Origin: Gracilariopsis chorda
Taxonomy: Eukaryota > Rhodophyta > Florideophyceae > Gracilariales > Gracilariaceae
DNA: 64,000 nucleotides
Assembly: GCA_003194525.1 (NCBI GenBank)
Contig: NBIV01000079.1
Span: forward strand, 186,001-250,000
Direction: 5' to 3'
Shown here: positions 57,273 through 64,000 of the stretch, in pieces
Layout: every line of letters starts with the position of its first letter
How positions within the stretch are numbered: position 1 is the stretch's first letter
The notes under the pieces: generated by a model
The model's database searches: none
What the model was told of the DNA's origin: nothing
The model's input: the letters and a program-made list of their open reading frames with translations, nothing else
Position numbers and translations under genes: made by a program

Positions 57273-57591
57273 GTCCTACGGACAGTTATAGACATTCAAA
57301 CGCACCTTTTGTCTATAGGGCGGAAGAAGGCCCAGGAAGCAAGACTCGTTTCGCTGATCTGCTCAACGGCAGTGACGAAGCAGAAGTACAGACAGTATTT
57401 CCTTGCCAAGACCTCAACACTTGCTTTCGGACGCTTTTCCTTCTTAATTGAGCACAATGCTTTCACAGGGACTTGGAGCAACAGCGGCACTCCGCCAAGT
57501 TCATCCTGGCGACCAAAGAGGTTCAATGATATACGTGTCGCAATGGACACCTGGACCCGGGGTTAGGCTGGCTGACTGCTAACTCTAGTAG
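57273..57591. other. Intergenic interval before the piggyBac array
   Basis: About 320 bp. One minus and one plus open frame of about 85 codons overlap almost completely and neither shows a motif. It should hold the PAP2 promoter. Confidence 0.45.
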
Positions 57592-57697
57592 TGTCTATCT
57601 GACCAGCGACCTCATATGAGGTCAATTTTAATTACTCTAGAACTTTATCAAAACCTTTAAACTTTTCCAAAAACTTTTTCGCTTTGATCTTCTCATC

Positions 57698-59897
57698 ATG
57701 TCTTCTACGCCGGCAGCGCTGAACCATGTCCACAACACATCATCAACAGTCGTAGCTGTCACATCAAGCACTATCGCCAACAACATTCGTACACAATGGC
57801 CCCGTCCACAGATCTTCGCAGAACTGTTGGAACATCTGTCAACAGCCGTGCACGTCTGGTTACAAATGACGCTGAATGCAAATGTTATTACGAATCTCTA
57901 TGGAAGTCAACAACGGTACATGGTTCTGTTCTCAATGTTGACATTCGTAAGATCAACAATCGAAATCTTACTTTTCTGACTGTAAAGTTTCGTCTACCGA
58001 ACCGCGAAAAAGAAGTAACTCTACCTCTATCTAGTGTCAAGCTGGGTAGCGGTGTTGACGAAGCCGTGAATGCTGCAGAAGAGCCTATTACCGAGGTTGA
58101 ACCCATTAATACGCAAAATGTGGAGGAAGATGCTCTTGTGACACCATCTCAGATGCAAGTTTTGCAGCCGCAAACAAGTTTATTAAGCGAAAATGCACCA
58201 GTCCAATCAACTGGGATTCATGGTCGTGTGTGGGAAACCTGTACGACGTTGAGTCCTCTGAATGGTTGTATGCAAATGCATCAGTGAAAAGTGGTTGGCC
58301 CAGCTGGAGATTTTATCTCACCGCGTCACGTTCCTCCAAACATGAGTGCATTAGATTTCTTTCTTTGGATGTTCCCTATGCAGCATTTGAAGTTCATGGT
58401 GAACAGAACAAATGTTCGGTTAGAAAGCAAAGACGTTCGGAGGACTTCAGGGGGAGAATTGCTCAAGTTCTTTGTAGTTCTTATCCTCATGACTCGCATT
58501 GAGTTCTCTAACAGACGGGATCTTTGGAGCCTCGAGCCTTTTTCTAAGTTTATTCTTCAGCCAAATATTGGTCTTGCGATGTCACGGAACAGATTTGAAA
58601 TGCTTAGAAGTTCAATATGCTTCAGCGGAAATGGTGTGACTGAAGAGCAGGGAATCGCGCGTTGGTCCTTCGTAACAGATTTTGTGAAGGCAATCAATAA
58701 CCATCGTCGGTCTTTGTCACGCCATCACATGCCTTATGTGTTGACGAAGGAATGTCACGATGGTACGGATTAGGCGGTAATTGGATTGATGTCGGGCTTC
58801 CGCACTATACGGCATTAGACAGAAAGCCGGAAAATGGTCTTGAAATGAAGGCCGTATGTTGTGCACGAAGTGGCATAATGCTGAACATTGAGCTCAATAT
58901 GGGTGCAAATATTCCAGAACAAGTTTTTGATTCTGATAACGCCCATGGAACGGCAGTCTTACTTCGCTTAGTGCAACCATGGTTTGGATCAGAAAGGTTG
59001 GTATGTGCGGATTCCTTTTTTGCATCTGTCAGTACAGCGAAAGCATTACTGGAAAAAGGTTTAAGGTTTACTGGAGTTGTCAAAAATGCTACTCGTGAAT
59101 ATCCCATGACACATCTCTCCGAAACTACTTTATCAGACAGGGGAGATTTTGTATCTATGCTACCGAAAGGAAGCATTATCAATAATGATATAATGGCTGT
59201 AATGTGGATGAACAGAGAAAGAAGGTATTTCGTATCAACCTCTGGCACGGTTAGTCCTGGCTGTCCTATTATTCGAGAAAGGTGGAGACGGGAGGGAAAT
59301 ATTTCTAAGAAAGTGGAATTGGAGGTCGCAATTCCCGAAGTGTGTGAAGAGTATTACGAAAACTGTTCAATTTTCGATCGCCATAACAGATGCAGACAAG
59401 AAGATCTGAATCTGGAGAAGAAAATTGAAGTGAAAGAGTGGTCATTTCGAGTGAACTGCTCTCTTTTATCGATTTGTATTGTGGACGCCTGGAAGTTGTA
59501 CAAAGCCGCAAATGGAACCCGAAACGTGAAAAGTCCGCACCACTTCTATTGCCAATTGGCTGATGAACTAATTGAGAATACATGGGATACCACAGGTCTA
59601 ATGAGCAGAGATGAGCAAGAATGTGAAAATGATCATGAGAAGCCAATGTTTGCAGGCACTGGCTTGGATTTAATGCAGACGAATAGAAGGAGAAAAAACA
59701 AGGATGGCAAGATTACAAAAGCTTTATATCAAGGACGGTGCAGTTTCTGCAAAGGTAATACAAAGTCCAAGTTTTTATGTTCTGGCTGCTATATCAGAAA
59801 GGAAAAAGAAGTGTTTTTATGTCACACTGGTACTAATAGAGATTGTTTTATGAAACACATTGAAGAGTGTCACGGTATAATGAAGTTCAGAAGCTGA
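57698..59897 (+). pseudogene. piggyBac-like transposase, inactivated
   Basis: DDE_Tnp_1_7-type transposase in pieces: 57796-58287, an in-frame TGA at 58285, then 58291-58773, then a -1 shift near 58715 into 58752-59897. Comparison with the copy at 61357 shows that the TGA stands for a Trp codon and that one T has been lost from a T run. Catalytic-core blocks visible are D-E-G-M-S-R-W-Y-G, V-C-A-D-S-F-F-A-S and I-V-D-A-W-K-L-Y. The C-terminus ends in a cysteine-rich zinc module (C-x2-C ... C-x2-C ... C-x6-C ... H-x4-C-H) as in PGBD proteins. The start is uncertain: the ATG at 57698 is in another frame and the ATG at 57796 is in frame. Confidence 0.85.
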
Positions 59898-60220
59898 TGA
59901 AGATGTCCACAACCTTGTCAACCTTCGTTTTTTCTATTAAAAATCCATGTTTGAATGCAAAAGTTTACAATAAGTTCATTTTACCTTTAGCCCCCTACTA
60001 ATTCAATCCGCGTTATTTAGACTTGCTAGATTTTTTAAACTCTATTACGAAACTGCCCCTTTAACAGATGTCACCGTATTCTTTCTGCTGTTCAAGTGGG
60101 TGTTACAAACGTTCTGAGAGTTTAAAGATATTTAGAATTAGTCGAGCTCCCGAAGGAGTTTTGGAGTTTTATGAAACTCAGCGAGGTTCGAACTCATGTT
60201 TTGTTGCTCGCATGTGACCT

Positions 60221-60258
60221 GACGACCACTGAGGTGCTGTTATGGCTCAGTGGTCGTC
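60221..60258. repeat. Perfect 13-bp hairpin in the element's 3' region
   Basis: GACGACCACTGAG and CTCAGTGGTCGTC flank 12 nt. The neighbouring GGTTCGAAC-type sequence at 60184 gives the minus strand a tRNA-like look, but a proper cloverleaf does not form. Confidence 0.65.
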
Positions 60259-60422
60259 TTCTACAAGTACTTATCGTTGAAAGACCACCCAGTTGGCCAT
60301 GTTTCAAGTTCAAAATTTGAAATGTGGGGCCATGCGGATCAGATTTCAATTTTTTTTTTTAATTTTGCGTGCCGTTGCACTGACCTCATATGAGGTCAGC
60401 GCACCGGTCCGATAGACACTAG

Positions 60423-60791
60423 TGTCTATCTAACCAGCGACCTCATATGAGGTCAATACTAATTACTCTAGAACTTTATCAAAACCTTTAAACTTTTCCA
60501 AAAACTTTTTCACTTTGATCTTCTCATCATGTCTTCTACGCCGGCAGCGCTGAACCATGTCCACAACACATCACCAACAGTCGTAGCTGTCACATCAAGC
60601 ACTATCGTCAAAAACATTCGTACACAATGGCCCCGTCCACAGATCTTTTAGTTCAAAGACCACCTGGTTAGCCATATTTCAAGTTCGAAATTTGAAATGT
60701 GGGGCCATGCAGATCAGATTTCAATTTTTTTTTAATTTTGCGTACCGTGGCTCTCACCTCATATGAGGTCAGTGCACTGGTCCGATAGACA
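60423..60791 (+). mobile_element. piggyBac-like element, internally deleted copy 2
   Basis: 369 bp with the same termini and internal palindromes as copy 1. The left 225 bp matches the 5' end of copy 1 up to the CCACAGATCTT segment (end near 60649). The sequence then jumps to the 3' end (TTCAAAGACCACC...). It is a non-autonomous, MITE-like derivative. Both ends abut neighbours through CTAG. Confidence 0.85.
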
Positions 60792-61356
60792 CTAGTGTCT
60801 ATCTGACCAGCGACCTCATATGAGGTCAATTTTAATTACTCTAGAACTTTATCAAAACCTTAGAACTTTTCCAAAAACTTTTTCGCTTTGATCTTCTCAT
60901 CATGTCTTCTACGCCGGCAGCGCTGAACCATGTCCACAACAAATCACCAACAGTCGTAGCTGTCACATCAAGCACTATCGTCAACAACATTTGTACACAA
61001 TGGCCCCGTCCACAGATCTTGGCAGAACTGTTGGAACAACTGTGAACAGCCGTGCTCGTCTGGTTACATATGACGCTAAGTTCAAACATTAATATAAATC
61101 CCTATGAAAATCAACAGCGGTACAAGGTTCCGTCCTCAATGATGACATTCAAAAGGTCAACAACCGGAAGCTCACTTTTCTGCCTGTGAATTTTAGTCTA
61201 CCCAACCAATAAAAAGAAGTCACCTTACATTTATCTAGTATCAAACTAGGTATTGGTGTTCAAGAAAGCGTAAATGCTGCAGAAGAACCTTTTAACGAGG
61301 TTGAACGGATTAGTTCGCAAAATATCGAGGAAGATTCTCTTATAACAACATCTCAC

Positions 61357-63886
61357 ATGCAAGTTCTGCAGCCGCAAACAAGTTCATTAAGCAAAAATGC
61401 ACCTGTCCAATCAACTTTCATCCATGGTCTTATGTGGGAAACCTGTATGATGTTGAGTCGTCTGAATGGTTTTATGCAAATGCATCAATGGAAAGTGGCT
61501 GACCCAGCCGGATATTTTATCTCACCGCGTCACGTTACTCCAAATATGAGTGCATTAGATTTCTTTCTTTGGATGTTCCCTATGCAGCATTTGGAGTTCA
61601 TAGTGAGCAGAACAAATGTTCGGTTAGAAAGCAAAGACGTTCGGAGGACGTCAGGGGGAGAATTGCTCAAATTCTTTGGAATTCTTATCCTCATGACTCG
61701 CATTGAGTTCTCTAACAGACGGGATCTTTGGAGCCTCGAGCTTTTTTATAAGTTTATTCCTCAGCCAAATATTGGTCTTGCAATGTCACGGAATAGATTT
61801 GAAATGCTTAGAAGTTCAATATGCTTCAGCGGAAATGGTGTGACTGAAGAGCAGGAAATCGCGCGTTGGTCCTTCGTAACAGATTTCATGAACGCAATCA
61901 ATGACTATCGTCGGTCTTTTGTCACGCCATCACATGCCTTATGTGTTGACGAAGGAATGTCACGATGGTACGGATTAGGCGGTAATTGGATTAATTTCTG
62001 GCTTCCACACTATAGGACATTAGATAGAAAGCCAGAAAGTGGGCTTGTAATGAAGGCCGTAAGTTGTGCACGAATTAGCATAATGCTGAACATTGAGCTC
62101 AATATGGGTGCAAATATTCCGGAACAAGTGTTTGATTCTGATAACGCCCATGGAACGGCAGTCTTATGTCGCTTAGTGCAACCATGGTTTGGATTAGTGT
62201 GGTGCAACGCCCCAAAGGGGAGAAACACCGAAAGACGTTCGGGATCTTTCCTCCGTGGAGGTGAACCCAATTGGGTAGAGCCCCTCTAGGGGTGGCACGG
62301 CGGAGCCGGTTTGTAAGACCGAGGCCAACCTTCGCGACTAGCGCAACACGGTTTAGGACAAGAATCGGTATCCGCGAGAGCGGGAATGCGTCCTCGCCAG
62401 AGGTAGGTTTCCACGTAATTGGGGATGTGTGAGTGGATGCGCAAACGAGGGCCGCGGATAGCGGGAGGTGCTACACTAGAAAGGGGAAAAGGAAGGGCGA
62501 AGAGGAGGAAGAGAGGACGAAGTGAGTCGCGAGAGCGACGGGGGCGAACGGCGATGCCGGTAACAATATCCCTATACAGGGCGAAACACCAATGCAATTG
62601 GAATAATATGACTCCCAGTGATGGGTCCCTTTAGATTTGCAAGGGAGTTAGATGTCCCGTGGTTCACGGCGTTTCCCCCCAAGGAGGAGTAGAACACGCG
62701 CGCAAGCGGTAACAACTAGAGCCAATTCCCCAGGTTGGGGTCCCTTGTTGGGGAAGCTTTACTGGTGCGACGGCAGTGCGCCGTCGCACTAAGTACTATC
62801 TTCCCAGAAATGGGTGTAAAAATAATAAATACAATTAACTAAAATACTCCACATTTCGTGGCAACATCCACTACTGTCGCCAACTGCCAATTGACCCAAA
62901 ACCGTGTCCCACGTGTCCATATCCACCATATTGGGGCGTAGTTCATATACACACTACACAACCGATAATATCGGGAAAACAATGAAGTACCAGGAATCCC
63001 TCCGTGAGGGCGTTGCACTTCAATTAGGAAGTTTAGTGTATGCAGATTCCTTTTTTGCATCTGTCAGTACCGCGAAAGCATTACTGGAGAAAGGTTTAAG
63101 TTTTACTGGAGTTGTCGAAAATGCTACTTGTGAGTATCCCATGACACATCTCTCCGAACTACTCTATCGGACAGGGGAGATTTTGTATCTATGCTATCAA
63201 AAGGAAGCATTATCAATAATGATATAATGGCTATAATGTGAATGGACAGAGAAAGAAGGTATTTCGTATCAACCTCTGGCACGCTTAATCCTGGGTCTCC
63301 TATTATTCGGGAAAGGTGGAGACGGGAGAGAAATATTTCTAAGAAAGTGGAATTGGAGGTTGCAATTCCCGAAGTGTGTGAGGAGTATTACAAAAACTGT
63401 TCAATGGTCGATCGCCATAGCAGGTGCAGAAAAGATCATCTGAATCTGGAGAAGAAAATTGAAGTGAAAGAGTGGTCATTTCGAGTGAATTGCTCTGTTT
63501 TATGGATTTGTATTGTGGAAGCGTGGAAGTTGTACAAAGCCTCAAATGAAACCAGAAACGTGAAGAGACCGCACCAATTCTATTTCCAATTGGCTGATGA
63601 ACTAATTGCGAATACATAGGATACCACAGGTGTAATGAATAGAGATGAGCAAGAATGTGAAAATGTTGATGAGAAGCCAATGTTTGCAGGCACTGGCTTG
63701 CATTTAATGCAAACCAATAGACGGAGAGAAAACAAGGATGGCAAGCTTACGAAAGCTTTATATCAAGGACGATGGAATTTTTTGAAAGGTAATACAAAGT
63801 CCCAGTTTTTATGTTGTGGGTGCTATATCAGAAAGGAAAAAGAAGAGTTTTTATGTCACACTGGTACTAATAGAGATTTTTTGTGA
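61357..63886 (+). pseudogene. piggyBac-like transposase, inactivated and interrupted
   Basis: Collinear with the copy at 57796-59897. The segment 61357-62197 keeps an open frame through the first catalytic block (C-V-D-E-G-M-S-R-W-Y-G), so here the frameshift and stop of copy 1 are absent. After the 825-bp insertion the frame resumes at about 63028 (Y-A-D-S-F-F-A-S). It is then broken by a shift near 63165, a TGA at 63239 and a TAG at 63617, both replacing Trp codons, and a final frame change near 63875. The two copies thus carry different lesions. Confidence 0.8.
62198..63022. mobile_element. 825-bp insertion with TG...CA ends and 5-bp direct repeats (solo-LTR-like)
   Basis: The insertion splits copy 3 and is flanked by ATTAG at 62193-62197 and 63023-63027. 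It begins TGTGG and ends TTCA, as LTRs do (TG...CA). A 5-bp duplication is typical of LTR integration. Its ends are also imperfect inverted repeats over about 15 bp (TG-x2-GTGCAACGCCC), each followed by a small hairpin. An AATAAATAC segment at about 62823 could be a polyadenylation signal. It has no ORF and is GC-rich and hairpin-rich in its first two thirds. A solo LTR is favoured; a TIR transposon derivative is the alternative. Confidence 0.65.
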
Positions 63887-64000
63887 AACACATTGGAGAG
63901 TGTCACGCTATAATGAAGTTCAGAAGCTTATATAGATGTCAACAACCTTGTCAACCTTCGTTTTTTATTGTGAAAATCAATGTTTGAATGCAAAAGTTTA

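Follow-up and report, generated by a model that had tools for sequence, protein, structure and literature searches.

CTAG as the probable target site of piggyBac-related transposons in Gracilariopsis chorda, with arrays probably built by insertion at element edges

The transposons piggyBac of Trichoplusia ni (PDB 6X67/6X68) and piggyBat (PDB 9C0F) insert at TTAA and have CC[C/T]T inverted-repeat tips, a canonical hallmark of piggyBac (PMC2872659). The piggyBac-like elements considered here lie at the right end of a 64,000-nucleotide stretch of the red alga Gracilariopsis chorda (the window; C79:186001-250000, in a genome of 91.3 Mb and 1,081 contigs). They share with piggyBac and piggyBat the superfamily and three aligned catalytic aspartates, and probably also a cysteine-rich C terminus and a 4-bp target site with a TA core, but differ in a CTAG target, TGTC tips, a tyrosine at the N440 position, and a longer omega loop. 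Among piggyBac insertions in human cells, the TTAA-main column gives TTAA 23,026, CTAA 110, TTAG 100, and CTAG 9 of 23,417 (PMC3499496); CTAG is thus reachable by piggyBac at a very low rate, whereas it is the rule in the lineage described here. For Pokey of Daphnia, also of the piggyBac superfamily, the tabulated sites are TTAA (88.13%), TTAT (5.93%), ATAA (5.09%), and CTAA (0.85%), with CTAG absent from that table; Pokey and mPok resemble the elements considered here in inserting beside a resident element, though flanked by TTAA (PMC3849761). PiggyMac of Paramecium cuts with a 4-base stagger around a conserved central TA and does not need TTAA (PMC3408717), but it is a domesticated endonuclease that excises germline DNA, and the outer bases are variable there and a fixed C and G here. 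The coral CMITEs are likewise piggyBac-related miniature inverted-repeat transposable elements (MITEs) in tandem arrays; unlike the present arrays they are TTAA-flanked, and their units and spacers are alike, hence the authors favour slippage (PMC2872659).

Within the window, three piggyBac-like elements follow one another in one orientation (+ strand), joined by two identical CTAG-centred palindromes. The very probable explanation is that these piggyBac-related DNA transposons target CTAG and insert preferentially at the CTAGs that edge resident elements, so that successive insertions build arrays. A first-pass annotation of this DNA had noticed the same 20-bp palindrome at both junctions, and both indeed read exactly GATAGACACTAGTGTCTATC (60411-60430, with CTAG at 60419-60422, and 60784-60803, with CTAG at 60792-60795). 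It had also described three related elements without a spacer; the array is real and joined through CTAG, but the middle member (60423-60791) is a 369-bp internally deleted derivative, or MITE, rather than a full element. This MITE has the same ends as the full element and is flanked by CTAG on both sides; on its left is element 1, full length at 2,827 bp (57592-60418), and on its right element 3, which begins at 60796 and runs past the window's last position (64000) by 451 bp, to C79:250451.

The flanks of other copies in the genome, a comparison that the first-pass annotation had proposed, point to CTAG as the target. Of 237 candidates in the copy search the best 40 were scored, which makes this a sample and not a complete inventory, and the 40 loci fetched (L001-L040) cover the 41 listed matches longer than 2 kb; pairing of ends gave 39 copies, reduced to 38 when a false pair at L015 (297 bp) was dropped. 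The window MITE is not among them, three loci (L033, L034, and L040) hold no two-ended copy, and L022 and L027 are counted as two copies although their common flanks make them one insertion event. CTAG stands on both sides in 31 of the 38 and at 67 of 76 flanks, and TTAA at none; the other flanks seen are GTAG, CGAG, CTAC, ATAG, CACT, and GTCC, so the wider nTAG preference that had been suggested is not needed. When the isolated full-size copies are recounted (excluding L011 and L013, which are loose adjacency matches), 21 of 27 have CTAG on both sides and none has TTAA; TTAA beside isolated copies had been named in advance as counting against a new target. Three further copies, two of them CTAG/CTAG and one CGAG/AGAG, bring the total to no TTAA at 82 flanks. 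Inserted copies read CTAG, TGTCTATC, the element body, GATAGACA, and CTAG; the tips are TGTCTATC, not the canonical CC[C/T]T. Genome-wide, CTAG followed by this tip (CTAGTGTCTATC) occurs at 411 sites against 10 for the reversed control, and TTAA followed by it (TTAATGTCTATC) at 1 site against 3. A TTAA target with misread ends was rejected, as the sole TTAA case is not followed by a recognisable element end. Also rejected was a longer target consensus similar to the tip: isolated sites have only a weak A/T excess beside CTAG (0.68, versus 0.51 for CTAGs of the window). MITEs selected from CTAG-flanked ends are not counted toward the target, because they were chosen by those very ends.

Unfilled relatives of the insertion site were read for four insertions and carry a single CTAG at three (L006, L031, and L004) and CTAC at one (L009). 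The L006 copy was inserted into a repeat, and three of the four relatives of that repeat that were read (those in L033, L034, and L040) show a single CTAG exactly where the insertion lies; the fourth, located within the window's element 3, reads ATAG. The other three insertions come from a genome search with 18 joined flank pairs, for which six of the 40 resulting matches were read: one CTAG without a gap was found in 2 of 2 relatives of L031 and in the 1 relative of L004.

Adjacency of elements is far from confined to the window. The junction palindrome occurs at 17 exact sites in the genome and at 37 sites with no more than 2 mismatches, with 0 sites for the reversed control in both cases, and chance palindromes were rejected on that comparison. 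Two of the 17 exact junctions repeat another's arms (C619/C620 and C12/C926), which may leave 15 independent ones. Given 411 ends and a genome total of about 190,000 CTAGs (scaled from 133 in the window, about two per kb), about 0.22 exact junctions are expected, and the observed 17 lie about 75-fold above this simple chance estimate. Insertion at the element's own terminus, which had been offered as an alternative to a different target, thus holds together with the CTAG target. Another element end is adjoined through CTAG in 10 of 37 full-size copies, a figure that becomes 8 of 35 when the two in the window are set aside. With AL and AR denoting the ends of the window family, B and C the two ends of a 368-bp MITE, and D, E, and ER other ends, the partners at the 37 sites are B/C (8), AL/B (6), AR/D (4), AL/AR, AR/B, and AR/C (3 each), C/E (2), and AR/AR, AR/ER, AL/C, and AL/ER (one each), with an unclassified arm at 4; one site (L066) has an arm unlike an element end. 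Ends of different families are joined at at least 20 of the 37. Pairs of A with B or C ends fall in one relative orientation nine times (AL/B and AR/C) and in the other four times. A list of 100 of the 411 ends contains 5 junctions and not one pair of outward-facing neighbours at a distance of 9-3000 bp; it holds exactly intact tips only and so would miss decayed neighbours. The excess of junctions, the differing families and ages of the partners, and the lack of near but non-adjacent neighbours in this sample together argue that elements preferentially insert at a CTAG next to one already in place. As a separate observation, one locus (L085; C5:683768-684903) holds two B-C MITEs head-to-tail and one reversed window-type MITE, all joined by CTAG.

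The mechanism proposed has insertion at CTAG leaving a CTAG-flanked element, as the flanks and unfilled relatives indicate. By analogy with piggyBac, excision would produce overhangs of CTAG that are self-complementary, with the ends forming CTAG hairpins as an intermediate. Each insertion creates two CTAGs touching the element's own ends, and new copies and short derivatives, those of sister families included, favour these edge CTAGs far above other CTAGs, as the junction statistics show; transposase on a resident end may draw in the incoming complex. Arrays would then grow by successive insertions of different age; in the window, divergence is greatest for element 3 and lower for element 1. 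Element 1 differs by 2.4% from its nearest copy (first 1,380 bp) and element 3 by 8.0% from its own, in a comparison that ignores the L036 row, misaligned through an early insert. The window MITE is 96.8% identical to the MITE in L030, the neighbour of which is 10.8% diverged from element 3; a single composite unit common to the window and L030 was rejected on these divergences.

Several observations weigh against insertion at edge CTAGs as the full account. CTAG is absent on one or both sides in 7 of the 38 copies and in 1 of the 3 further ones (CGAG/AGAG). The unfilled relatives of L009 read CTAC without a gap (3 of 3), although the element itself is flanked by CTAG on both sides; the copy struck may have differed from its relatives at that base, or the site may have been CTAC. 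The chance estimate assumes that all CTAGs are equally open, and it rises to 1.3 expected junctions with 1,000 ends and to 5.3 with 2,000. Outward-facing tips 0-24 bp apart occur at 27 sites (reversed control 1), where the spacer is CTAG at 17, ATAG at 1, CTAGTCTAG at 1, and 16 nt long at 1, but the 2-nt AG (CT on the other strand) in place of CTAG at seven: C15:273219 (L088), C28:123502 (L023), C36:319458 (L099), C47:244065 (L100), C52:215559 (L015), C72:236649 (L101), and C95:9301 (L102). At three of these (L023, L099, and L100) the same tip recurs in inverted orientation as a short second arm of about 22-26 bp, and one idea is that AG-spaced junctions arise from a mis-processed hairpin end. 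Finally, 11 same-family pairs are head-to-tail and 1 is inverted, whereas free insertion into a palindrome predicts about half of each (one-sided P about 0.003, calculated by hand), and, the site being palindromic, a 4-bp duplication of CTAG would look the same as a 2-bp duplication of TA between an invariant C and G.

The orientation bias (8 C/B and 3 AR/AL pairs versus 1 AR/AR) is what would be expected if the elements target CTAG but the arrays were built up chiefly through tandem duplication, slippage, or unequal exchange between the repeated ends, and slippage is the process favoured for the coral MITE arrays (PMC2872659). This origin is nonetheless unlikely: junctions of mixed families and ages make tandem duplication improbable as a general cause, since at least 20 of 37 unite different families and the members of the window array diverge unequally (2.4% versus 8.0%, and 10.8% between element 3 and the neighbour of the L030 MITE). 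Later tandem duplication, which the first-pass annotation had held out as undoing its proposal, therefore fails for junctions whose partners differ in family or age, while the mostly head-to-tail arrangement of same-family pairs stands as something that simple insertion does not predict.

A little less probable again is duplication of TA alone within a CTAG target, in which case the element tips would be GTGTC...GACAC, as in Tc1/mariner-like elements. A palindromic site, identical in sequence under either duplication, would allow this; the transposase is of the piggyBac superfamily, however, and both piggyBac and PiggyMac cut with a 4-base stagger (PMC3408717). That adjacency reflects a general regional excess of insertions, with no attraction by element ends, is very improbable: insertions could cluster in a repeat-rich genome, but the sampled ends, intact tips only, gave 5 exact junctions and no pairs at 9-3000 bp even though CTAGs occur about twice per kb. 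Assembly artefacts are the least credible source of the junctions, for although the common arms in C619/C620 and C12/C926 may mean that some contigs are redundant, there are 37 sites with varied partners and a reversed control of 0.

Judged from its sequence, the transposase of the CTAG elements is a member of the piggyBac superfamily. The protein of the L009 copy matches PF13843 (DDE_Tnp_1_7) over positions 2-349 of 349 (E 5.1e-50; score 171.2, cut-off 22.4) and also matches piggyBat (9c0f; E 1.2e-12). The catalytic aspartates of piggyBac (D268, D346, and D447) are present: D317 and D406 align with 6x67, and D528 aligns with the aspartate of the piggyBat GVD, whose equivalent in 6x67 is shown by a separate alignment. 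Five C-terminal cysteines (C649, C652, C662, C665, and C684) are common to the sister and TTAA families, in a region matched by no domain model. An AlphaFold2 prediction from a three-sequence alignment had a mean pLDDT (predicted local distance difference test) of 31 and was not used. An uninterrupted 700-amino-acid frame is found in 12 of the 40 loci (L002, L004, L005, L006, L008, L009, L013, L017, L018, L021, L023, and L029), and L008, L009, and L014 differ from one another by only 0.1-0.2% (first 1,380 bp), which suggests recent activity of the lineage. A sister family (L043) has 54% identity to the CTAG lineage, and in L042 and L043 CTAG stands at 4 of 4 flanks. No relative turned up in a scan of viral contigs. 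Bacterial IS630 elements also target CTAG; their transposase family is unrelated, and the Pfam search, the only search made for it, gave no IS630 match.

The same genome provides an internal control in a separate piggyBac family (L044, with L075-L078), which matches PF13843 (E 2.9e-29) and has 20% identity to the CTAG lineage. This family has the canonical TTAA sites and CCCT tips: its CCCTTTT-tipped ends are of the ordinary form TTAA, CCC...GGG, TTAA. The two sides of the copies in C458 and C84 read TTAA, CCCTTTTGAACC and GGCTCAAAAGGG, TTAA, and a copy in C21, read on the right side only, has TTAA. In piggyBac, the four bases of the target are shaped by the omega loop (R275, Y283, and K290) together with Y439, N440, V414, and L416; N440 makes contact with A-2, and TTAA specificity is ascribed most likely to a T0-A3 bond that another first base is said to be unable to meet (PMC7351741). 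The YN pair is retained in the L044 protein, which aligns without gaps to the omega loop of 6x67, whereas the CTAG transposases have YY (Y520 and Y521) at the place of Y439-N440, with tyrosine for Asn440 by way of the piggyBat alignment, and their omega loop is longer by 7-8 residues, counted by hand from the alignment. The tyrosine and the longer loop thus show a correlation with the CTAG target in two lineages. A simple residue reading is opposed by the identity of A-2 in TTAA and CTAG, so the change from Asn to Tyr is no obvious base swap. It is conceivable, at somewhat less than even chances, that a piggyBac clade switched from TTAA to CTAG through the longer omega loop and the Asn-to-Tyr change, keeping the TA core and self-complementary overhang and substituting a C0-G3 contact for the T0-A3 bond, with the enzyme drawn to occupied ends so that chains form.

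Further features of the array concern its margins and decay. The left flank (57588-57591) is GTAG, as had been reported, with CTAG three bases further out (CTAGTAG), and may be a decayed CTAG. Element 1, the youngest by divergence, has a broken transposase frame; its longest surviving part (58752-59897, + strand, 381 amino acids) covers the second half of the piggyBac domain (PF13843, E 3.7e-24), and a subterminal 16-bp palindrome, GACCTCATATGAGGTC (57608-57623), recurs near both element ends. Element 3, the oldest by divergence, likewise has a broken transposase, with a remnant at 61357-62200 (PF13843, E 9.8e-22). A different repeat inserted in it, at about 62198-63022, is marked by a homology break and partly complementary arms (62202-62223 and 62997-63018); it has GTGCAACGCCC-like inverted ends and further copies in L033, L034, and L040. 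A second CTAG or CTAG-like repeat lies beside several insertions, namely L005 (left CTAGTAG, right CTAGCTAG), L030, L037, and L082 (left CTAGCTAG), L080 (right CTAGCTAGCTAG), and the window array (57585-57591, CTAGTAG); these doubled repeats might be excision footprints or preferred sites. Elsewhere, C193:122113-122385 (L041) has one weak phycobilisome-domain match (E 9.8e-5) and no match among solved structures.

In the open-access literature searched, with Repbase and subscription papers outside the search, there is no identifiable report of a piggyBac element with a CTAG duplication; the text found uses CTAG in other senses, beside Helitron terms in a figure legend (PMC5857283), as a restriction site (PMC4260951), or in stop-codon readthrough (PMC10085805). 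Within that literature a fixed CTAG preference provisionally looks new, while array building by edge insertion is already known in kind from Pokey. TTAA has been treated as a signature of piggyBac, and a natural CTAG lineage beside a TTAA lineage in one genome makes the claim about the T0-A3 bond testable. The arrays are a natural readout of a resident end attracting new insertions, and the CTAG lineage, which bears on how piggyBac chooses its target, offers starting points for retargeting piggyBac tools.

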